DNA from: Mangrovimonas sp. YM274 | GTDB lineage: Bacteria > Bacteroidota > Bacteroidia > Flavobacteriales > Flavobacteriaceae | NCBI RefSeq assembly: GCF_030908385.1 | Contig: NZ_CP133091.1 | Location: 3,653,501-3,717,500, forward strand | Direction: 5' to 3' | DNA: 64,000 bases | Shown: in pieces, positions 20,870-30,522 of the stretch | Layout of the letters: each line of letters opens with the position of its first letter | Numbering within the stretch: the stretch's first letter is position 1 | Position numbers and translations under genes: made by a program | Notes under the pieces: model-generated | Told to the model about the DNA's origin: nothing | The model's input: the letters and a program-made list of their open reading frames with translations, nothing else | Databases searched by the model: none

Positions 20870-20947
20870 TTAACATTACCCTAACCTTTTTATTACCTAG
20901 GTTTAATTGTGAGTTAACATTGACTTTACAGTATGAAGGTTTCTTTG
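20870..20947 (+). promoter_or_regulatory. Six-unit Pho-box-like array and -7 element for the TonB-dependent receptor
   Basis: Seven-base units start every 11 bp at 20870 (TTAACAT), 20881 (CTAACCT), 20892 (ATTACCT), 20903 (TTAATTG), 20914 (TTAACAT) and 20925 (TTTACAG), with 4-bp spacers. After the last unit there are exactly 8 nt, then TTTCTTTG (20940-20947) as a -7 element. Transcription should start near 20952, before the receptor ATG at 20971. The 7-4-7 geometry is that of PhoB-type sites; the base sequence differs from the E. coli Pho box. Regulator identity is inferred from the downstream genes. Confidence 0.6.
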
Positions 20948-20970
20948 CAGCGAATTACAACAACTATAAT

Positions 20971-23775
20971 ATGAGACAATTACTATTTGTATTTTCGGTG
21001 CTTTTCACCACCTTTTTCTACGCACAAAACACTGGTTCTGTGGCAGGAAAATTAACGGACATTGACTTTAACAACGAACCGTTGGCCTTTGCCAACATTT
21101 TAATTAAAGGTACCACTACTGGTACCACCTCAGATTTTGATGGTCTATACACCATAGACAACCTGGATCCGGGAAGTTACACACTTGTATTCAGCTTTGT
21201 TGGATATGAAACCCAAGAAATAACTGTAGATGTAATTGCGGGTAAAGTAACTGAAGTAAATGTGCCTATGGGAGCCAGTGCGGCTTCATTGGACGAGGTA
21301 ATCATTACCACTACTACCAGAAAAGAAAGTGAAGCTGCTTTGCTATTGGAACAAAAGAAAGCTACTGGAATAAAAACATCTATTGGCGCCCAAGAGCTTT
21401 CTAGAAAAGGTGTTAGTGACGTTGCCACCGCGGTAACCAAAGTTTCTGGAATCTCTCAACAGGAAGGTTCAGGAAGCGTATTTGTTAGAGGTTTAGGTGA
21501 TAGATACAACATTACCACTTTGAACGGCCTACCATTACCTTCAAACAACCCAGCAAATAAAAACATCGATTTGGATATCTTTAGTACTAATATTGTTGAG
21601 TTTATTGGTATTGACAAAACTTACAATGCAGCCAACTATGGTGACTTTGCCGGAGCAAACATCAATATTACTTCCAAAGATTATACAGGATCAGGATTTT
21701 TACAATTAGGATTGAGCAGCGGTGCGAACACCGAGGCCATCGGAACCAATGATTTCTACCTACACGAGGGCCCTAACTATAGTGGTTTTTATGACATAGA
21801 CTACCCGGAATACCCTCTAAACAACTATAACTTTACAACTAGTTGGGACAGAGAAAAAGGACCTATGCCTGTCAATTCAGGAATCTCACTTATTGGAGGT
21901 GAGATGTTAAGATTAGGGGATGAAACTAAATTGAGTTTCTTTGGTGTAGGTAATTACAGTAATGGATTCACTTATAAGGAAGGAATTTCCAGAGGTGGTG
22001 TGAATGCATCTGCTGTGCCATTGAGCGATTTTGACTTTGAGAACTACGAGTATAAGACCAATACCACTTTAATGGGAAATATTGGCTTGAAACACAAACA
22101 ACAATCCATAAAATACAACGTACTTTACCTAAACTCTACAAGCCAGAAACAATTGGAATACGACGGCGTGATCAACATATTTGATGACGCTCCCGAAGGT
22201 GGAGGAATCATTCAACGTTCGGTATTTGATAGAACCGAATTATTTGTAAATCAATTATTGGGTGACCATGCCATTGGTGAGCAATTTGATGTAAACTGGG
22301 GAGTATCTTACAACATGCTTCACAACAATGTCCCTAATAGAAGGCAGACAACTTTTCTTCCTGTAGATCCAAATGATCCAGAAGGACCTAAATCTACGCA
22401 ATTGGTTTCTGCTGCGTCAGACAACCACAGATTCTACCAAGATTTGAATGAAGATGAATTGGCTGCAAACATTGCAACAACTTTCAAATTCAGCAAAAAT
22501 GAAGATGACATGTATGTTGGAAAAGTGACTTTGGGTTACAATGGTAGAATGAAAAAAGTAGATTTTGAAGCCACACAATTCAACTTTAGAATCTTGCTTA
22601 GAGACGCCAACAACAACCTTATCACGCAACCTGTTGTAGACCCTTACAATGCAGATGCCTATTTTAATCAACAAAACCTTAATGCGGGCTTATTTAGAAT
22701 AGAAACCTTTAGAGGTAACGTGAACACACCAAACGCACTAGACCCTCAATTTTACAAAGGAGAGCAAAACATCCATGCTGGGTTTATTAATTTCGAATAT
22801 GCCTTTTCATCAAAATTCAGTTTGATTGCTGGAATTAGAGGAGAACAAATAAGCCAAACAATTGGATGGGACACTTCCATAAGCCAAAGTGACGAAGACA
22901 ACGAATATGACACTTTCGAAATACTTCCTGCACTATCCTTAAAGTATGCCCTAAACGAAAAGCACAACTTAAAATTTGCGGCTAGTAAAACGTATACCTT
23001 ACCACAATTTAAAGAACGTGCTCCTTTCCTATACCAAGAGGTGAACCAAGATTATATAGGAAACCCAGATTTGTATGCGTCTACAGATTACAATGCTGAT
23101 ATTATTTGGGAATTCTTCCCAGAATCTGATGAGATTTTCTCTCTAGGGGCTTTTGGAAAGTATATAGAAAACCCAATCAACCAAGTTACCATTGCCTCGG
23201 CTTCCAATGATATTAGCTGGGTTAATTCTGGAGATTACGCTATGGCACTTGGGGCCGAGCTTGAAGTACGTAAAAACTTGTTCAAAAGTGAAGTTGAAAC
23301 CGACGACAGTACCTTGGCAACCGTGTTCTCTGCAGGCCTAAATGCAGCCTACATGTATACCGACCAAGAATTGAATGATGAAAAAGTATCTGAAGAAACT
23401 TCTGGACTTTCAACAGTCTTTACAAATGAAAACGATCGTCTTTCCGGAGCATCAGACTTTATCATGAATGCCGATATCAGTTTCAACAAAGACTTTTCAG
23501 AAGACCGAAACTTCATGACAACTTTAGCCTTCAACTATTTCTCTGACCGTATTTACGCCCTGGGAATTCAAGGAAAAGGAAACATGGTAGACAAAGGTTA
23601 TGGCACCTTGGATTTTGTAACTAAATATCAAGTAAACGAGCATATCACTCTAGGAGCCTCTTTTAAGAACTTGTTAAACCCTTCTATTGAACGTTACCAA
23701 GACACACAAAATGTTGACGTAATGAGCTACAAAAAGGGAAGAGATTTTAAATTATCCTTGTCATACCAGTTTTAA
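20971..23775 (+). CDS. TonB-dependent receptor of the phosphate island
   Basis: 934 residues: signal peptide (LLFVFSVLFTTFFYAQ), a carboxypeptidase-regulatory-like (CarboxypepD_reg) beta-sandwich at about 24-108 (GSVAGKLTDIDFN...GYETQEITVDV), a plug domain (about 140-260; GVSDVATAVTKVSGISQQ, SGSVFVRGLGDRYN), and a 22-stranded barrel ending in FKLSLSYQF. It imports a large or scarce ligand through the outer membrane using TonB energy. The ATG at 20971 is chosen because the upstream in-frame ATG at 20920 lies inside the promoter array. The following lipoprotein gene is probably its partner. A phosphate-related ligand is inferred from context only. Confidence 0.9.
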   Translation: MRQLLFVFSVLFTTFFYAQNTGSVAGKLTDIDFNNEPLAFANILIKGTTTGTTSDFDGLYTIDNLDPGSYTLVFSFVGYETQEITVDVIAGKVTEVNVPMGASAASLDEVIITTTTRKESEAALLLEQKKATGIKTSIGAQELSRKGVSDVATAVTKVSGISQQEGSGSVFVRGLGDRYNITTLNGLPLPSNNPANKNIDLDIFSTNIVEFIGIDKTYNAANYGDFAGANINITSKDYTGSGFLQLGLSSGANTEAIGTNDFYLHEGPNYSGFYDIDYPEYPLNNYNFTTSWDREKGPMPVNSGISLIGGEMLRLGDETKLSFFGVGNYSNGFTYKEGISRGGVNASAVPLSDFDFENYEYKTNTTLMGNIGLKHKQQSIKYNVLYLNSTSQKQLEYDGVINIFDDAPEGGGIIQRSVFDRTELFVNQLLGDHAIGEQFDVNWGVSYNMLHNNVPNRRQTTFLPVDPNDPEGPKSTQLVSAASDNHRFYQDLNEDELAANIATTFKFSKNEDDMYVGKVTLGYNGRMKKVDFEATQFNFRILLRDANNNLITQPVVDPYNADAYFNQQNLNAGLFRIETFRGNVNTPNALDPQFYKGEQNIHAGFINFEYAFSSKFSLIAGIRGEQISQTIGWDTSISQSDEDNEYDTFEILPALSLKYALNEKHNLKFAASKTYTLPQFKERAPFLYQEVNQDYIGNPDLYASTDYNADIIWEFFPESDEIFSLGAFGKYIENPINQVTIASASNDISWVNSGDYAMALGAELEVRKNLFKSEVETDDSTLATVFSAGLNAAYMYTDQELNDEKVSEETSGLSTVFTNENDRLSGASDFIMNADISFNKDFSEDRNFMTTLAFNYFSDRIYALGIQGKGNMVDKGYGTLDFVTKYQVNEHITLGASFKNLLNPSIERYQDTQNVDVMSYKKGRDFKLSLSYQF

Positions 23776-23822
23776 GCAATTGTTAACAAATCAAAGAATT
23801 AACAAAATATATTCATATTAAG

Positions 23823-23840
23823 TTAACCATTCTGTAAACT
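23823..23840 (+). promoter_or_regulatory. Pho-box-like direct repeat before the duplicated lipoprotein gene
   Basis: TTAACCA and GTAAACT start 11 bp apart (23823, 23834), separated by 4 bp. A weak GTTG -7-like element follows at 23854-23857, 9 rather than 8 nt spacing for an 8-mer. This is a weaker match than its neighbours. The gene may also be read through from the receptor 122 nt upstream. Confidence 0.35.
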
Positions 23841-23897
23841 TCAATTTAAAGCTGTTGCCGTATTTCGCTTTAAATTTTTAAAACAACAAAAAACACA

Positions 23898-26114
23898 ATG
23901 AGAAAAAATTTATTTACTTTAATTCTTACAGTAGCAACATTGATTTCTGTTGTATCCTGTTCCAGCGATGACGACAATGGTGGAGGAGCTACTTGTAATG
24001 ACGGAATTCAAAATGGAAATGAAACAGGTATCGATTGTGGAGGTGATTGTGCACCTTGTGAGACCTTAAGCATTTTGGAAGGAGAAATTTCAGATGACGT
24101 TGCATTAGACGCTTCTATTGAGTACGAATTAACAGGAGCATTGGTAGTTCTTAACGGTGGGTCTTTAACCATTCCTGCTGGAACGGTAATCAGAGCTACT
24201 GGAGGAACTTCAGCTTATATCGCAGTTGCTCAAGGCGCTCAAATATTTGTTAACGGTACAGCTGCCAACCCAGTAGTAATGACCTCTGCCGCCAACTCTC
24301 CAGCTGCTGGAGATTGGGGTGGATTAATAATCTGTGGTAATGCACCTACCAACAAAGGAACTTCTGTAACCTCTGAAGTTGGTGATTTAATTTATGGTGG
24401 CAGTGAAGTTAATGACAACTCTGGTTCTGTTCGCTACTTAAGAGTTGAGTATACTGGAGCTACCTTCTCAAACTCAAAAGAGTTCAACGGGGTATCTTTA
24501 TTCGGTGTTGGTGCTGGCACTACTTTTGAATATGTACAGTCTTACAACGGTGGCGATGACGGTATCGAGTTCTTTGGTGGAACTGTAGAAGGACGTTATT
24601 TAGTGTCTATCAACAGTGGTGATGACTCTATCGACTTTGCTGACGGATGGGCTGGAAACGGTTCTAATTGGTATATCGCTGGAGGCGCTAAAGCGGGTAT
24701 TGAAGGATCCAACAACGGAGATAACGGAAATGCAACCCCTGTTACTACCACTACACTTTCTAACATCACTGTAGTAGGCCCTGTTACTGAAGGAGCGCTT
24801 TACTACAAAGAAGGTGGAGGTAACTTTACTATCGACAACTTTTATGTTAGTAATGTTGACCTTGGCGTTAAAGTTAAGGATACCGATGCTGAAGCTGGTG
24901 CAAGAATCGAAAATGGCGACTTGACTATTACTAATCTACAGTTTGCAGATACAGCTGAAGGGTTCATGGTTACTGATTACACAGGAAGCAACCAATCTTT
25001 CTACACAGAAGGTATTTCTCAAGGTGCCGGTAACGGTGCTGCTGCTCCAGATTGGGCTGCTGGATGGACTATTGGTCTTGACAACAGTGGTTCTGCTACT
25101 GAAAACTTGGCTGGGGAAATTACAGGTACTGTATCCCTTAACGCTAATACTGAATATACACTTACTAGTAGCTTAATCGTTAAAGCAGGAGGAACCTTAA
25201 ACATCGCTGCTGGAACTGTAATTAAAGCTACTGGTGGTACTGCTTCCTTTATTGGAGTAGAACAAAATGCTACTATCAACATTAACGGAGAAGCTAACAA
25301 CCCTGTAGTAATGACTTCTGGCGCAGCATCTCCTGCTGCTGGTGACTGGGGAGGTTTGGTTATCTGTGGTAACGCACCTACCAACAAAGGGACTTCTGTA
25401 ACTTCTGAAGTTGGTGATTTAATCTACGGAGGAAACGATACAGATGATAGTTCTGGATCGATCCAATACTTAAGAGTAGAGTACACTGGTGCTACCTTCT
25501 CAAACTCTAAAGAATTCAACGGTGTATCATTATTTGGTGTTGGTGCCGGAACTACATTTGAATATGTACAGTCTTATAACGGTGGTGATGACGGTATCGA
25601 GTTCTTCGGAGGATCTGTAGTAGGTAACTACTTAGTTTCTATCAATAGTGGAGATGACTCTATCGACTTTGCTGATGGTTGGACTGGATCTGGATCTAAC
25701 TGGTACATTGCCGGAGGTGCTAAAGCTGGTATTGAAGGATCTAACAATTCTGACAATGGAAATGCTACCCCTGTAACCACAACTACTTTATCTAATATTA
25801 CTGTTGTAGGACCTGTTACCGAAGGTGCCCTATACTTCAAAGAAGGTGGAGGTCACTTTACTATCGATAACTTCTATACAACTGGAATTAACTTAGGTAT
25901 CAAAGTAAAAGACACAGATGCAGAAGCTGCTGCAAGAATTGAAAACGGTGACTTAACCATGACCAACGTAATGTTTGAAAACATTGCCGAAGGATTTATG
26001 GCAACTGATTATACTGGTGCTAACCAAACATTCTATACCGAAGCTACTGCTACCGGTGCTGGTAACGGTGCAGACGCTCCTGATTGGGCTGCTGGTTGGA
26101 CTACTGGATTATAA
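23898..26114 (+). CDS. Surface lipoprotein with two tandem beta-helix-like domains
   Basis: 738 residues with a lipoprotein signal (LISVVSC) followed by SSDDDNGGG, an acidic stretch typical of surface-exposed Bacteroidota lipoproteins, then a small cysteine-rich motif (CNDGIQNGNETGIDCGGDC). The rest is two near-identical copies, residues 60-403 and 404-738, each with short strand-turn repeats (GTVIRATGG, GDWGGLIICGNAPTNKG, YLRVEYTGATFSNSKEFNG) suggesting a right-handed parallel beta-helix. It is not SusD-like. Its place after the TonB receptor and the Pho-like site suggests a surface binding or hydrolytic partner. The acidic GDDGIEFF and GDDSIDFADGW motifs could bind metal. Confidence 0.8.
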   Translation: MRKNLFTLILTVATLISVVSCSSDDDNGGGATCNDGIQNGNETGIDCGGDCAPCETLSILEGEISDDVALDASIEYELTGALVVLNGGSLTIPAGTVIRATGGTSAYIAVAQGAQIFVNGTAANPVVMTSAANSPAAGDWGGLIICGNAPTNKGTSVTSEVGDLIYGGSEVNDNSGSVRYLRVEYTGATFSNSKEFNGVSLFGVGAGTTFEYVQSYNGGDDGIEFFGGTVEGRYLVSINSGDDSIDFADGWAGNGSNWYIAGGAKAGIEGSNNGDNGNATPVTTTTLSNITVVGPVTEGALYYKEGGGNFTIDNFYVSNVDLGVKVKDTDAEAGARIENGDLTITNLQFADTAEGFMVTDYTGSNQSFYTEGISQGAGNGAAAPDWAAGWTIGLDNSGSATENLAGEITGTVSLNANTEYTLTSSLIVKAGGTLNIAAGTVIKATGGTASFIGVEQNATININGEANNPVVMTSGAASPAAGDWGGLVICGNAPTNKGTSVTSEVGDLIYGGNDTDDSSGSIQYLRVEYTGATFSNSKEFNGVSLFGVGAGTTFEYVQSYNGGDDGIEFFGGSVVGNYLVSINSGDDSIDFADGWTGSGSNWYIAGGAKAGIEGSNNSDNGNATPVTTTTLSNITVVGPVTEGALYFKEGGGHFTIDNFYTTGINLGIKVKDTDAEAAARIENGDLTMTNVMFENIAEGFMATDYTGANQTFYTEATATGAGNGADAPDWAAGWTTGL
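24075..26114 (+). repeat. Internal tandem duplication of about 1032 bp within the lipoprotein gene
   Basis: Unit 1 (24075-25106) and unit 2 (25107-26114) align with a constant offset of 1032 bp (344 codons). Long stretches are identical at protein level (NAPTNKGTSVTSEVGDLIYG in both; GDDGIEFFGG in both), while many synonymous codons differ. The duplication is therefore not very recent and has been kept under selection. Confidence 0.9.
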
Positions 26115-26133: not shown

Positions 26134-26166
26134 AAAAAAAGCACCCTAAATAGGGTGCTTTTTTTT
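26134..26166. terminator. Bidirectional intrinsic terminator
   Basis: GCACCC (26141-26146) pairs with GGGTGC (26153-26158) in a longer A-run/T-run palindrome. It serves the lipoprotein gene on the plus strand and the convergent YwqK-like gene on the minus strand. Confidence 0.85.
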
Positions 26167-26185
26167 GTTATTAATTATATTATTA

Positions 26186-26539
26186 TCATTTAGATGCCAG
26201 AGCATCTTTGGTAGTCCATTCATTTACGTTGGCCACTCTATTGTTAAGATAATCTACCTCTTTTAAAGTATCTTCTTCCCAAAAGAACCACTTACCAGTT
26301 TTAACACCATTGTCATACTTTGCTGCCGCTATTTTTGTTCCATTTACATCATAACTATACCAATCACCCTGTAGCTTCCCGTCAAACGTATAACTACCCG
26401 TTTGGCTAATGGTTCCGTTGTCATGATAATACACGACATCAATCACATTGGTTTCTTTATTTAACGTTAAAGTTCGTTCACTCTGTGCAAATCCAAGACT
26501 TACAAAAAGCAATGCTGCAAGTACGACTATCTTTTTCAT
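26186..26539 (-). CDS. Secreted YwqK/MORN-like repeat protein
   Basis: 117 residues: signal peptide (MKKIVVLAALLFVSLGFAQ), then short MORN-variant repeats (YYHDNGTISQTGSYTFDGKLQGDWYSYDVNG; AAKYDNGVKTGKWFFWEEDT). Families of this type are often labelled YwqK antitoxins, but the signal peptide argues for a periplasmic or surface role and I see no toxin gene nearby. It sits inside the phosphate island on the opposite strand; any functional link is unproven. Confidence 0.75.
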   Translation of the reverse strand: MKKIVVLAALLFVSLGFAQSERTLTLNKETNVIDVVYYHDNGTISQTGSYTFDGKLQGDWYSYDVNGTKIAAAKYDNGVKTGKWFFWEEDTLKEVDYLNNRVANVNEWTTKDALASK

Positions 26540-26606: not shown

Positions 26607-26624
26607 GTAACATTAAATTAACAT
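26607..26624. promoter_or_regulatory. Near-perfect Pho-box-like direct repeat without a clear promoter
   Basis: GTAACAT and TTAACAT separated by TAAA (7-4-7). The site is almost identical to the one before the porin (26869-26886). It lies 68 bp upstream of the YwqK-like gene start, and 50-110 bp upstream of the candidate sRNA array. No TTTG lies at the 8-nt spacing on either strand, so which transcript it controls is unclear. Confidence 0.5.
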
Positions 26625-26670: not shown

Positions 26671-26737
26671 ATTAAATCTTATTAATAATTAGTTAATATT
26701 ATCGTTACATTAAAGTCATTTTATATTGGCAGATTTG
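26671..26737 (+). promoter_or_regulatory. Five-unit Pho-box-like array and -7 element before a candidate sRNA
   Basis: Seven-base units start every 11 bp at 26671 (ATTAAAT), 26682 (TTAATAA), 26693 (TTAATAT), 26704 (GTTACAT) and 26715 (GTCATTT). After 8 nt comes CAGATTTG (26730-26737), which matches six of the TAnnTTTG positions or better. The layout equals that of the receptor and porin promoters, but no protein gene follows before a terminator. Confidence 0.5.
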
Positions 26738-26741
26738 CAGA

Positions 26742-26845
26742 GTCTTATGACAAACAATGAGAGATTCATATAATCTATTAGTTTTTGTCGACTATATTAT
26801 AGTGAATTCTAGAGGCTACTTTTAACAAAGTGGCCTCTTTTTTTT
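26742..26845 (+). ncRNA. Candidate phosphate-responsive small RNA, about 100 nt
   Basis: Bounded by the promoter-like array ending at 26737 and by a strong intrinsic terminator at 26812-26845, inside a 390-bp intergenic region between divergent genes. The body contains complementary GACAAA and TTTGTC segments (26749 and about 26783) and a small hairpin around ACTATATTATAGT (about 26790-26803). The only reading frame is an 8-codon ATG frame at 26747-26773, probably chance. Start site and function are predicted, not observed. Confidence 0.5.
26812..26845 (+). terminator. Strong intrinsic terminator of the candidate sRNA
   Basis: GAGGCTACTTT pairs with AAAGTGGCCTC (11 bp, one G-U pair) around a TAAC loop, followed by eight T. 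It points along the plus strand, where no upstream protein gene exists (the neighbour at 26186-26539 is transcribed away from it). Confidence 0.85.
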
Positions 26846-26868: not shown

Positions 26869-26902
26869 GTAACATTAAGTTAACATAGTTTTTAGTTCTT
26901 TG
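26869..26902 (+). promoter_or_regulatory. Pho-box-like repeat and -7 element of the porin gene
   Basis: GTAACAT (26869-26875) and TTAACAT (26880-26886) are separated by TAAG, with a partial third unit TTAATCT at 26858 on the same 11-bp grid. Eight nt later comes GTTCTTTG (26895-26902). Transcription should start near 26907, before the porin ATG at 26930. The -7 is weak at its first two bases, as expected for an activator-dependent promoter. Confidence 0.6.
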
Positions 26903-26929
26903 CCGCCGACAAAAACTAATACCCCTGAT

Positions 26930-28129
26930 ATGAAACTTAAACTTACTGCCTTGGCAGTTATGCTATGTTGCATGCTTACCTCTCATGCACAAGAAACAAA
27001 CAGTCCTAAATTCGGAAAAGGCCTTTTTAACCTAGTTGGTAAAGACAGCTCTTGGACGATGAAAATTGGAGCTCGTGTGCAGCTATTAGGATCTACTACC
27101 TGGACGGAAAATGATGGAGATCTAGGAAACCTTCAATCTAGTATGCTCGTAAGACGTTCCCGTTTAAAGTTTGACGGTTACGCCTTAACCCCAAAATTAA
27201 AGTACAAATTAGAGTTCGGTCTTTCAAACCGCGATATGTCCGGCGCTTCCTATTACACACACAATTCCCCTCGTTTTGTTATGGATGCCGTAATGAAATG
27301 GAATTTCCACGGCAACTTTGTACTGTGGTTTGGACAAACCAAACTGCCAGGAAACCGTGAACGTGTTATTTCATCGGCCAATTTACAATTTGTGGACCGT
27401 TCCATCCTTAATGCAGGTTTTAATATAGACCGTGACATGGGGATCCAATTACACCACCAAATTGCCATCACCAAAAAGTTTGTCATCAAAGAAGTTTTGG
27501 CCATTTCTCAAGGAGAAGGTAGAAACGTAACCACAGGTAATTTAGGTGGACAACAATATACTGGACGACTAGAAATGTATCCATTTGGAACCTTCGAAGG
27601 AAAAGAAGATTATATGGGAAGTGACCTTAAACGTACAAAGTCCCCTAAATTAGCTCTAGGAGTATCCTACGATTTTAACGATAACGCCGTAAGAACCCGC
27701 AGCAATATGGGCACCTATATGGAAACAGACAACGGTTTGTTTGAAACAGACATCACAACCCTATTTGTAGATGCCATGTTTAAATACAGAGGCCTTTCAA
27801 TCATGGGAGAATATGCCAACAGAGATGCAGACACTCCGGTAGCCGTAAATAGCGATGGTACACCCACTGGTGATATTGTACAAGTTGGAAGTGGTTACAA
27901 TCTTTCGGCAGGTTACCTTTTCAAAAGCAATTGGGAAGTTGCAGGACGTTATGCCAACACAGATTTTAAAGAAATTACAGGAAGAGACACTACAAATGAG
28001 TATACTCTAGGAGTTTCTAAGTATATTGTAGGTCATAAACTTAAGGTGCAATCGGATATCACTTATGCAGACTTCGCAGTCCAATCGGATAAATTGGGTT
28101 GGCGTTTACAATTTGAAATCCATTTTTAA
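26930..28129 (+). CDS. Phosphate-selective porin (OprO/OprP family)
   Basis: 399 residues with a signal peptide (LTALAVMLCCMLTSHAQ). The mature part has the OprO/P pattern: WTMKIGARVQLLG, a run of arginines in SMLVRRSRLKFDGY, then YKLEFGLSNRD and LWFGQTKLPGNRERVISS, and it ends in a strand with terminal aromatic residues (LQFEIHF). It is a trimeric outer-membrane channel for phosphate or polyphosphate by family. The ATG at 26930 is chosen because the alternative TTG at 26900 lies in the promoter. It is followed by the PiT gene 77 nt downstream. Confidence 0.88.
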   Translation: MKLKLTALAVMLCCMLTSHAQETNSPKFGKGLFNLVGKDSSWTMKIGARVQLLGSTTWTENDGDLGNLQSSMLVRRSRLKFDGYALTPKLKYKLEFGLSNRDMSGASYYTHNSPRFVMDAVMKWNFHGNFVLWFGQTKLPGNRERVISSANLQFVDRSILNAGFNIDRDMGIQLHHQIAITKKFVIKEVLAISQGEGRNVTTGNLGGQQYTGRLEMYPFGTFEGKEDYMGSDLKRTKSPKLALGVSYDFNDNAVRTRSNMGTYMETDNGLFETDITTLFVDAMFKYRGLSIMGEYANRDADTPVAVNSDGTPTGDIVQVGSGYNLSAGYLFKSNWEVAGRYANTDFKEITGRDTTNEYTLGVSKYIVGHKLKVQSDITYADFAVQSDKLGWRLQFEIHF

Positions 28130-28206: not shown

Positions 28207-30522
28207 ATGGATAATATTTATTTATTAATGATAGTTGCCCTAGGCGTTTTGGCCATTGCTGATTTAGTTGTTGGGGTAAGTAATGACGCGGTAAACTTTT
28301 TAAACTCGGCTATTGGGTCTAAAGCGTTTTCCTTTAAAACCATTATGATAGTTGCCAGTATAGGGGTAGCTGTTGGAGCTATATTTTCCAGCGGAATGAT
28401 GGAGGTTGCCCGAAAGGGAATCTTCAACCCCGGCCAGTTCATGTTTAGTGAAATCATGATCATTTTTATGGCCGTCATGATAACAGACATCCTCCTCTTG
28501 GACTTTTTCAATTCTGTTGGGATGCCTACATCAACCACGGTTTCTATTGTATTTGAATTACTTGGCGCTTCCGTAGCCATGGCATTGATTAAGATTGCCA
28601 ATGACGGAGGAACCTTCAGCGATGTCGTTAACTACATTAACACCTCGAAAGCTACCGAAATTATCTTCGGTATCCTGCTCTCGGTAGTCGTCGCCTTTAC
28701 AATAGGCGCCATCGTACAATGGGTCTCAAGATTATTGCTGTCTTATGATTTTGAAAGAAAGGCGAAATGGGTTGGCGCTTTATTTGGAGGCTTTGCTTTA
28801 ACAGCCATCACGTATTTCATCTTCATGAAAGGTATTAAAGGAACCAACTACGCCAAAGAAAGTTTTGATATTTTGGGAGGAGAAACCATTAGCCACTTCT
28901 TAGAGCATCAAGTACTAATTATTGTTGCCATTAGTTTAGTGTTTTGGTCACTACTATCCTTTGCATTAATAATGTTTGCCAAAACAAACATTTACAAATT
29001 AATTATCCTTGTAGGGACCTTTGCATTAGCCTTAGCATTTGCTGGAAACGATTTGGTAAACTTTATTGGAGTTCCAATTGCAGGTTGGCAATCCTTCCAA
29101 GCTTGGACAGCTTCAGGAGCTGCTCCAGAAACTTTTGCCATGGCTAGTTTAGCCTCTAAAGTCCCTACCCCTACATTCTTATTGATGGCCGCAGGTTTAA
29201 TTATGGTAATTACCCTTTGGTTCTCCAGTAAAGCTAAAGATGTTGTCAAAACCTCTCTAGACCTTTCAAGTCAAGAAGAGACAAAAGAGCGCTTCCAACC
29301 AAACTTCCTATCGCGAGGATTTGTAAGAACAGCTATCTTGATGTCTCAAATTTCAGCTTATATTTTACCAGAATCTTGGCAAGCCAAAATTGATCAGCAA
29401 TTTGAAAAACCAGTAATTACCCTTAAAAAGGACAAAACATATGAATTACCTGCTTTTGACTTGGTAAGAGCAGCTGTAAACCTAATGGTAGCAGCCGTAT
29501 TAATCTCCATAGCTACTTCAATGAAGTTGCCATTATCTACGACATATGTAACTTTTATGGTTGCCATGGGTACTTCTTTGGCAGATAGAGCTTGGGGAGC
29601 AGAAAGCGCCGTATATCGTGTAGCAGGTGTAATAAACGTTATTGGAGGTTGGTTTTTCACCGCACTTATTGCCTTTGTATCGGCCGCTGTTATTGCTTAT
29701 TTCCTTAATTGGAATGTAAAAGTAATGGTACCTGTACTATTGTTATTGGCAACCATTATTTTGGTTCGCAACTACTTATCACACAGCAAAAAATCAAAAG
29801 AGCAAAAAGCTGAAGACCGCCTATTAAAAGCGGAAAGCAGCTCTGTACAAGGTGTTATTTACGAAAGTGCAGACAATATTGCCAACGTAGTTAACAGAGG
29901 GAACAGAATTTACACCAATGCCATTAACGGTCTTGCAAAACAAGATTTGGCAATGCTTAAAAAGAATAAAAAGCAAGTCGTTAAATTATCTGATGAAATT
30001 GACGAACTACGTGACAACATTTTCTATTTCATAAAAAATTTGGACGAGTCCAGCGTTGGCGCCAGTAATTTCTACATTAACGTTTTAGGTTACCTACAAG
30101 ATATGACGCAGTCTTTGGAATACATCTCCAAGGCAAGCCACAAACATATCAACAACAATCACAAGAAACTAAAATTTAGTCAGATTAAGGAGTTGAAAGA
30201 AGTGGACGAGCGCTTTGAAAGACTATTTCAAAACACCAAACATGCTTTTGAAACCAATTCATTTGAAGAAATTGGTCAAATCTTGAACAGAAAAGAAGAA
30301 ATCGTTTCTCTAGTAACAGATAAAATCCAAAAACAAGTGGAGCGTACTCGAACCGAAGAATCGAGCCCTAAAAACACGACGCTTTACTTCAGTATGTTAT
30401 TAGAAACAAAAGACCTTCTTAATGCTACAATGAACTTATTGGAAGAGTATTACAACGCCCATGACAGTTCAGTAAAACCTGCAACCTTAAGTAAATTATT
30501 TGCCGGTAGCGAAGAGGAATAA
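28207..30522 (+). CDS. PiT-family inorganic phosphate transporter with C-terminal PhoU-like domain
   Basis: 771 residues. The membrane part carries both inverted PiT signatures: VGVSNDAVNFLNSAIGSKAF near the N-terminus and AFAGNDLVNFIGVPIAG in the middle, with about 12 hydrophobic helices to residue 520. A charged linker (HSKKSKEQKAEDRLLKAE) then leads into a helical domain, about 540-755, resembling PhoU/DUF47 proteins (IANVVNRGNRIYTNAINGL; LYFSMLLETKDLLNATMNL). It moves phosphate across the inner membrane, cation-coupled by family. The fused domain may gate transport. It completes an outer-to-inner-membrane phosphate route with the porin. Confidence 0.92.
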   Translation: MDNIYLLMIVALGVLAIADLVVGVSNDAVNFLNSAIGSKAFSFKTIMIVASIGVAVGAIFSSGMMEVARKGIFNPGQFMFSEIMIIFMAVMITDILLLDFFNSVGMPTSTTVSIVFELLGASVAMALIKIANDGGTFSDVVNYINTSKATEIIFGILLSVVVAFTIGAIVQWVSRLLLSYDFERKAKWVGALFGGFALTAITYFIFMKGIKGTNYAKESFDILGGETISHFLEHQVLIIVAISLVFWSLLSFALIMFAKTNIYKLIILVGTFALALAFAGNDLVNFIGVPIAGWQSFQAWTASGAAPETFAMASLASKVPTPTFLLMAAGLIMVITLWFSSKAKDVVKTSLDLSSQEETKERFQPNFLSRGFVRTAILMSQISAYILPESWQAKIDQQFEKPVITLKKDKTYELPAFDLVRAAVNLMVAAVLISIATSMKLPLSTTYVTFMVAMGTSLADRAWGAESAVYRVAGVINVIGGWFFTALIAFVSAAVIAYFLNWNVKVMVPVLLLLATIILVRNYLSHSKKSKEQKAEDRLLKAESSSVQGVIYESADNIANVVNRGNRIYTNAINGLAKQDLAMLKKNKKQVVKLSDEIDELRDNIFYFIKNLDESSVGASNFYINVLGYLQDMTQSLEYISKASHKHINNNHKKLKFSQIKELKEVDERFERLFQNTKHAFETNSFEEIGQILNRKEEIVSLVTDKIQKQVERTRTEESSPKNTTLYFSMLLETKDLLNATMNLLEEYYNAHDSSVKPATLSKLFAGSEEE

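Follow-up and report, generated by a model that had tools for sequence, protein, structure and literature searches.

MicF, MicC, MicA and RybB of the enterobacteria are, like the RNA predicted here, trans-encoded small RNAs (sRNAs) that carry a terminator and pair near the start of a porin mRNA. These four RNAs use Hfq. The clearest functionally studied sRNA of the Flavobacteriaceae in the literature found is Rfp18 of Flavobacterium psychrophilum, which is reported to be conserved in the genus Flavobacterium and to have metalloprotease mRNAs as its predicted targets; no link to phosphate porins was found in the accessible part of the paper that describes it (PMC9723704). Further small RNAs of the same phylum are GibS and BTnc060 of Bacteroides (PMC7366714). 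A literature search found no paper on an sRNA for a phosphate porin in Flavobacteriaceae.

The window, that is the whole stretch of 64,000 nucleotides of contig NZ_CP133091.1 of Mangrovimonas sp. YM274 that was analysed, contains a locus that is well supported as a trans-encoded antisense sRNA dedicated to a phosphate porin, and not as a leader or an invertible promoter, with the transcript itself being predicted. The best explanation, in which we place a good deal of confidence, is that of a trans-acting base-pairing sRNA whose main conserved target is the phosphate porin mRNA, with which it would be co-induced at low phosphate, and which would cap porin synthesis. It very probably controls the phosphate-uptake channel, the main gate for phosphate entry, and most likely damps it, although the direction of this effect is inferred. 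The initial annotation had put forward a small RNA at this position, and that reading is supported by the conserved promoter, the covarying terminator and hairpin, the coevolution of loop and leader and the separation from the porin elsewhere, with no expression data available for the predicted transcript. The features of the sRNA gene and its upstream neighbour are as follows.

26186 to 26539, reverse strand: YwqK-like gene, divergent, a conserved synteny partner in many genera (ORF list; synteny)
26682 to 26715, forward strand: tandem 11-bp repeats TTAATAATTAG TTAATATTATC GTTACATTAAA upstream of the sRNA, a probable PhoB-type activator site (no binding data)
26730 to 26737, forward strand: -7 element CAGATTTG of the sRNA promoter, of the Bacteroidota type, its TTTG conserved across the sRNA family
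26742 to 26845, forward strand: sRNA gene, a predicted transcript with its 5' end placed to within 4 nt either way (promoter, terminator, fold, covariance model R1)
26742 to 26751, forward strand: SL1, the 5' stem-loop (GUC UUAU GAC), with variants in relatives and modest fold support
26763 to 26808, forward strand: SL2, the seed hairpin bearing the antisense loop (predicted fold; arm-swap test)
26765 to 26771, forward strand: second pairing block UUCAUAU in the 5' arm of SL2, able to pair with the AUAUGAA that spans the porin start codon
26776 to 26790, forward strand: seed loop UAUUAGUUUUUGUCG (in DNA letters TATTAGTTTTTGTCG), antisense to the porin leader (15 bp perfect pairing; compensatory changes)
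26811 to 26845, forward strand: intrinsic terminator, a 12-bp stem plus T8 (scan for terminator-like sites; covariation)

The DNA itself establishes the predicted sRNA as a unit of its own, with a promoter at one end and a terminator at the other. The promoter had initially been described as having five 11-bp units and a -7 at 26730-26737 with no protein gene behind it; the repeats are real and are conserved over genera, but there are three clear units and a weak fourth, not five equal ones, the -7 stands as the -7-like CAGATTTG, and the ORF list of the window has no ORF of at least 80 aa at the locus. A small protein encoded by the transcript was also considered, as there is a 22-aa frame in the window, and was rejected as the frame is not conserved, with an ATG-started frame through the sRNA core in only 20 of 153 homologues and these in mixed frames. 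The terminator, thought to comprise an 11-bp stem and eight T at 26812-26845, does so with 12 pairs and a 4-nt loop in a stem that runs from 26811 to 26838, and with exactly eight T at 26838-26845; the surrounding 1-kb region has two terminator-like sites, with 0.6 expected. The predicted 104-nt RNA has a folding energy of -28.6 kcal/mol (z=-4.4 against shuffles), to which the terminator contributes much, and taken locally SL1 and SL2 stand out only modestly from shuffles by z-score. In many relatives SL1 is a longer palindrome, with the variants TGTCTTAAGACA, GTGTTTTAAAACAC and TGTATTTAAATACA, and the most conserved block of the sRNA is the seed loop at 26776-26790. A known Rfam RNA was rejected as the identity of the locus, with no family of Rfam 15 above the gathering threshold and only sub-threshold scores at chance level.

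Conservation between the YwqK-like and porin genes of relatives, which had been suggested as a check on the candidate, is found, with the intergenic DNA matched in 27 of 60 relatives and the terminator stem covarying (22, 33, 22 and 11 compensated sequences at four stem pairs). RNAalifold on a MAFFT alignment missed the seed hairpin because the hairpin arms vary in length, and arm-swap tests were used instead; over 91 non-redundant homologues the arms of SL2 pair at -9.4 kcal/mol with their own partner versus -6.4 kcal/mol with that of a stranger (z=-12.7). An exact scan of the genome collection with the 17-nt core ATTAGTTTTTGTCGACT gave 80 loci, nearly all in Flavobacteriaceae, in the genera Algibacter, Maribacter, Winogradskyella, Tenacibaculum, Aquimarina, Arenibacter and others, with Mangrovimonas xylaniphaga, a congener of the window organism, amongst them; L047, L049, L081 and L085 were discarded as chance matches inside genes or in unrelated phyla. 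The covariance model R1, which was built from 78 homologues and used with a cut-off of E<=1e-3, finds the sRNA in 128 of 301 Flavobacteriaceae genomes. None was found outside this family in the sampled genomes, the six matches in an order-wide sample of 248 being all from Flavobacteriaceae. The porin is present in 120 of the 128 sRNA-bearing genomes (Fisher p=9e-36), and about 44 porin-bearing genomes are without a detected sRNA, some of which, for example G009, have a divergent sRNA that the model missed, whilst G018 and G022 lack the leader motif as well as the sRNA, which is consistent with joint loss. The locus is a conserved RNA family, which is absent from Rfam and apparently undescribed.

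The initial annotation did not contain the central feature of the locus, a 15-nt inverted match between the sRNA and the porin leader at 26907-26921. The features on the side of the target are the following.

26870 to 26886, forward strand: TAACATTAAGTTAACAT repeats of the porin promoter
26899 to 26902, forward strand: TTTG of the porin -7 element, with the predicted mRNA start 4-6 nt downstream
26907 to 26921, forward strand: target site CGACAAAAACTAATA, with which the porin mRNA leader is predicted to open and which is perfectly reverse-complementary to the seed loop
26928 to 26934, forward strand: AUAUGAA, the second target block, which takes in the start codon (block-2 swap test; duplex prediction)
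26930 to 28129, forward strand: target gene, a phosphate-selective OprP-type porin (PF07396 Porin_O_P; ORF list, Pfam match)
28207 to 30522, forward strand: PiT-type phosphate transporter (PF01384 PHO4), the next gene downstream of the porin

The target site begins 4 nt past the porin TTTG and stops 8 nt short of the ATG, and the porin mRNA should therefore begin with it. The predicted duplex of the sRNA and porin leader in the window comprises 15 + 7 bp, and the leader on its own is predicted to be open (0.81 unpaired vs 0.60 in shuffles). When duplex energies are compared for 49 ORFs of the window the porin ranks first, but the background is high. An antisense leader lies within two mismatches in 73 of the 76 genuine flavobacterial loci found by the seed alone, and over 153 loci the distance from core to target has a median of 125 nt, with the target starting a median of 20 nt before the start codon.

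It is apparent that loop and leader have changed together. The commonest version of seed and leader is TTAGT/ACTAA, and matched changes are found as TTAAG/CTTAA in L199, L213, L219, L226, L228 and L229, TAAAG/CTTTA in L204 and L207, TTACAG/CTGTAA in L233, GTTTTAGTC/GACTAAAAC in L220 and L222, TCTTTG/CAAAGA in L238, TGG/CCA in L192 and GTCAC/GTGAC in L235, with pairings of 21 bp between sRNA and leader in L201 and L202. The native pairing beats shuffled leaders in all of 152 pairs (median -20.9 vs -8.2 kcal/mol). Among the divergent seeds, of which 22 are distinct, the native mean is -22.3 kcal/mol vs -16.1 kcal/mol with swapped leaders, none of 20,000 permutations being as low. The same swap test on the AUG block (block 2) gives z=-10.1. 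The p-values of these swap tests ignore relatedness; the matched changes nonetheless occur in many genera and in different letters. At pair position -2 there are 119 distinct combinations, with T-A 100 times, A-T 11 times and C-G once, and 115 are paired vs 95 expected; the loci used here had been selected with a regular expression that covers the nine central pairs, and only the flanking positions are unbiased. Both predicted pairings, that of the loop with the leader and that of the AUG block, demonstrably coevolve across genera.

Some genomes carry further or altered copies. On contig C107 of G147 (L240/L183) the sRNA core and the porin promoter and leader are perfect inverted copies of one another over 32 nt, the porin -7 included, which looks as if a template switch had copied the porin promoter into the sRNA, and a second, intact copy of the sRNA lies without a porin on another contig of this genome (L182). 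In G167 an ectopic duplicate (L181), approximately 116 kb from the main copy, comprises the sRNA, porin promoter, leader and signal peptide, with the duplicate porin truncated after approximately 20 codons.

Phosphate (PhoB) control of the sRNA is likely but not shown, with both PhoB binding and induction inferred because the 11-bp repeats are common to the porin promoter and there are phosphate genes nearby (PiT; pst-phoU in G294). The direct repeats of the sRNA and porin promoters are in the same phase, the consensus of 127 aligned sRNA promoters is TTAATaATTa.TTAATaTTa...TTACAtT, and a matrix of the porin promoter scores above shuffles in 125 of these 127. As would be expected of a member of the Pho regulon, the sRNA promoter is preceded by direct repeats at 11-bp spacing that phosphate genes have too, including the promoter of the porin-pst operon of G294. 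A strict Pho box pattern, TAACATTNNNTTAACAT, has two exact sites in the genome; because both are in the sRNA intergenic region the box cannot be anchored on other Pho genes, and no PstS was found in the window genome. In F. johnsoniae phosphate depletion strongly induces two members of the phoBR cluster, a TonB-dependent receptor and a pectin-lyase-like lipoprotein, but not the OprP gene (PMC8115612). That OprP is not induced counts against the best explanation, although F. johnsoniae was not shown in the present analysis to carry the sRNA.

The strongest 11-bp double repeat, TAACATTAAATTAACAT at 26608-26624, belongs to the YwqK-like gene, which has no Pfam match. Just upstream of the sRNA locus, at 20920-26114, are genes for a TonB-dependent receptor and a repeat-containing lipoprotein that resemble the phosphate-starvation-induced receptor and lipoprotein pairs of F. 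johnsoniae, and the leader of the receptor, CGAATTACAACAACTATAATATG, faintly resembles the sRNA target site. Between the lipoprotein and YwqK genes a perfect stem of 14 bp with A and T runs on its flanks (26134-26165) forms a bidirectional terminator.

The sRNA and porin are usually in tandem on the same strand, 106-244 nt apart, and the locus might thus act in cis as the 5' leader of one long porin transcript, the terminator serving as an attenuator and the loop pairing further down the same molecule. This is very hard to sustain, as a conserved promoter belonging to the porin lies between the terminator and the target, and in two genera (L257 and L258, in G126 and G103) genes for a SulP sulfate permease and a carbonic anhydrase lie on the opposite strand between the sRNA and the porin, giving a gap of 3.1 kb with the pairing retained (9 + 11 bp in G126). 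In G264 the pairing is likewise kept with the sRNA and a PF07396 porin with leader TCGACAAAAACTAA on different contigs, which would put them at least 6 kb from each other even with the contig ends joined. A read-through leader was rejected, as the separated loci are not compatible with a continuous transcript into the porin; the initial annotation had held that the sRNA reading would be refuted if the terminator were the end of a longer read-through RNA, and this is contradicted by L257, L258 and L317, where RNA and target are in separate transcripts. Equally little credence can be given to an element acting at the level of DNA, in which a recombinase flips the porin promoter or the repeats are kept identical by template-switch mutation. 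It is true that an inverted repeat of 13-17 bp flanks the porin promoter, an architecture known from the invertible promoters of Bacteroidota, and that the 32-nt inverted copy in G147 is probably due to a template switch, but the orientation is the same in all 153 paired loci (from assemblies only), the repeats are maintained 3 kb apart or on separate contigs, one of the repeats is surrounded by hairpin arms and a terminator that coevolve in the manner of RNA and the leader variants are mostly G-U-compatible; the constant orientation and the separated loci led to the rejection of an invertible promoter. A trans-encoded antisense sRNA is preferred because the pairing persists across the 3.1-kb separation and on different contigs, and the locus has what is looked for in such an RNA, namely its own promoter and intrinsic terminator, no reading frame that is conserved, a target in a separate transcription unit (L257, L258, G264; the porin's own promoter) and a conserved antisense match to an mRNA leader in which changes are compensated.

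How the trans-encoded sRNA may act can be inferred. At low phosphate a PhoB-type regulator would turn on both the sRNA and the porin/PiT operon via the same 11-bp repeats, the sRNA loop would nucleate where the porin mRNA is open, at its 5' end, and pairing would spread over the AUG, blocking ribosome binding and probably destabilising the porin mRNA, with the sRNA capping porin synthesis in an incoherent feed-forward or damping loop on phosphate entry at the outer membrane. Translational repression of the porin operon is the likeliest effect, with transcript and direction both inferred, and is favoured because the leader is open alone, with no inhibitory structure to remove, and because the pairing covers the AUG. 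The same sRNA and pairing could instead be activating, either by aiding translation or by shielding the porin message from 5'-end-dependent decay, as a duplex can do at the very start of an mRNA, where the target lies; co-induction with the target would then make simple sense. As the pairing reaches across the start codon of a leader without inhibitory structure to relieve, this is judged improbable. Compatible with repression of the porin as the main target, and unlikely without being negligible, is that the sRNA serves several targets in phosphate starvation and the porin is merely the neighbouring one. In L173 (G146) and L284 (G016) an sRNA with an intact seed lies directly upstream of PiT, and neither a porin nor an antisense leader is in the vicinity, a hint of additional targets or of a recent loss. 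Within the window genome, however, the only exact CGACAAAAACTAA outside the sRNA is in the porin leader, and a wider regulon there was rejected, with the one-mismatch sites being inside genes or outside translation start regions. The same leader precedes different PF07396 porins in G135, G096 (where the porin was assigned by resemblance to the G135 protein, without a separate Pfam scan) and G264, a porin without Pfam match followed by PiT in G177, and a porin without Pfam match followed by pstS, two permease genes, pstB and phoU (porin-pstSCAB-phoU) in G294. The leader might be portable throughout the family, CGACAAAAACTAATA being kept and coevolving with the sRNA whilst the porin behind it is exchanged, such that the RNA pair and not the protein is the conserved controller of phosphate entry at the outer membrane, a suggestion for which we see the chances as evenly balanced.

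The sRNA family apparently has not been described before, and its hosts are a large bacterial group, for the most part marine, with a role in the recycling of algal matter. Its target has been identified at base-pair resolution from sequence alone. The family opens the post-transcriptional control of phosphate uptake in Bacteroidota to direct tests, and the natural compensatory pairs, such as TTAAG/CTTAA against the common TTAGT/ACTAA, are ready-made mutants for genetics.

Set beside the known systems, the sRNA of the window is at chance level in Rfam against the two Bacteroides RNAs (GibS 21 bits with a cut-off of 115, BTnc060 19 bits with a cut-off of 229). Rfp18 is alike in being conserved and structured and in having predicted targets with one common pairing region (PMC9723704). 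Compared with MicF, MicC, MicA and RybB, the sRNA described here is without sequence relation (no Rfam match), has its seed in a hairpin loop, stands in a phosphate context and is predicted to have one dedicated target that is usually its neighbour and coevolves with it.
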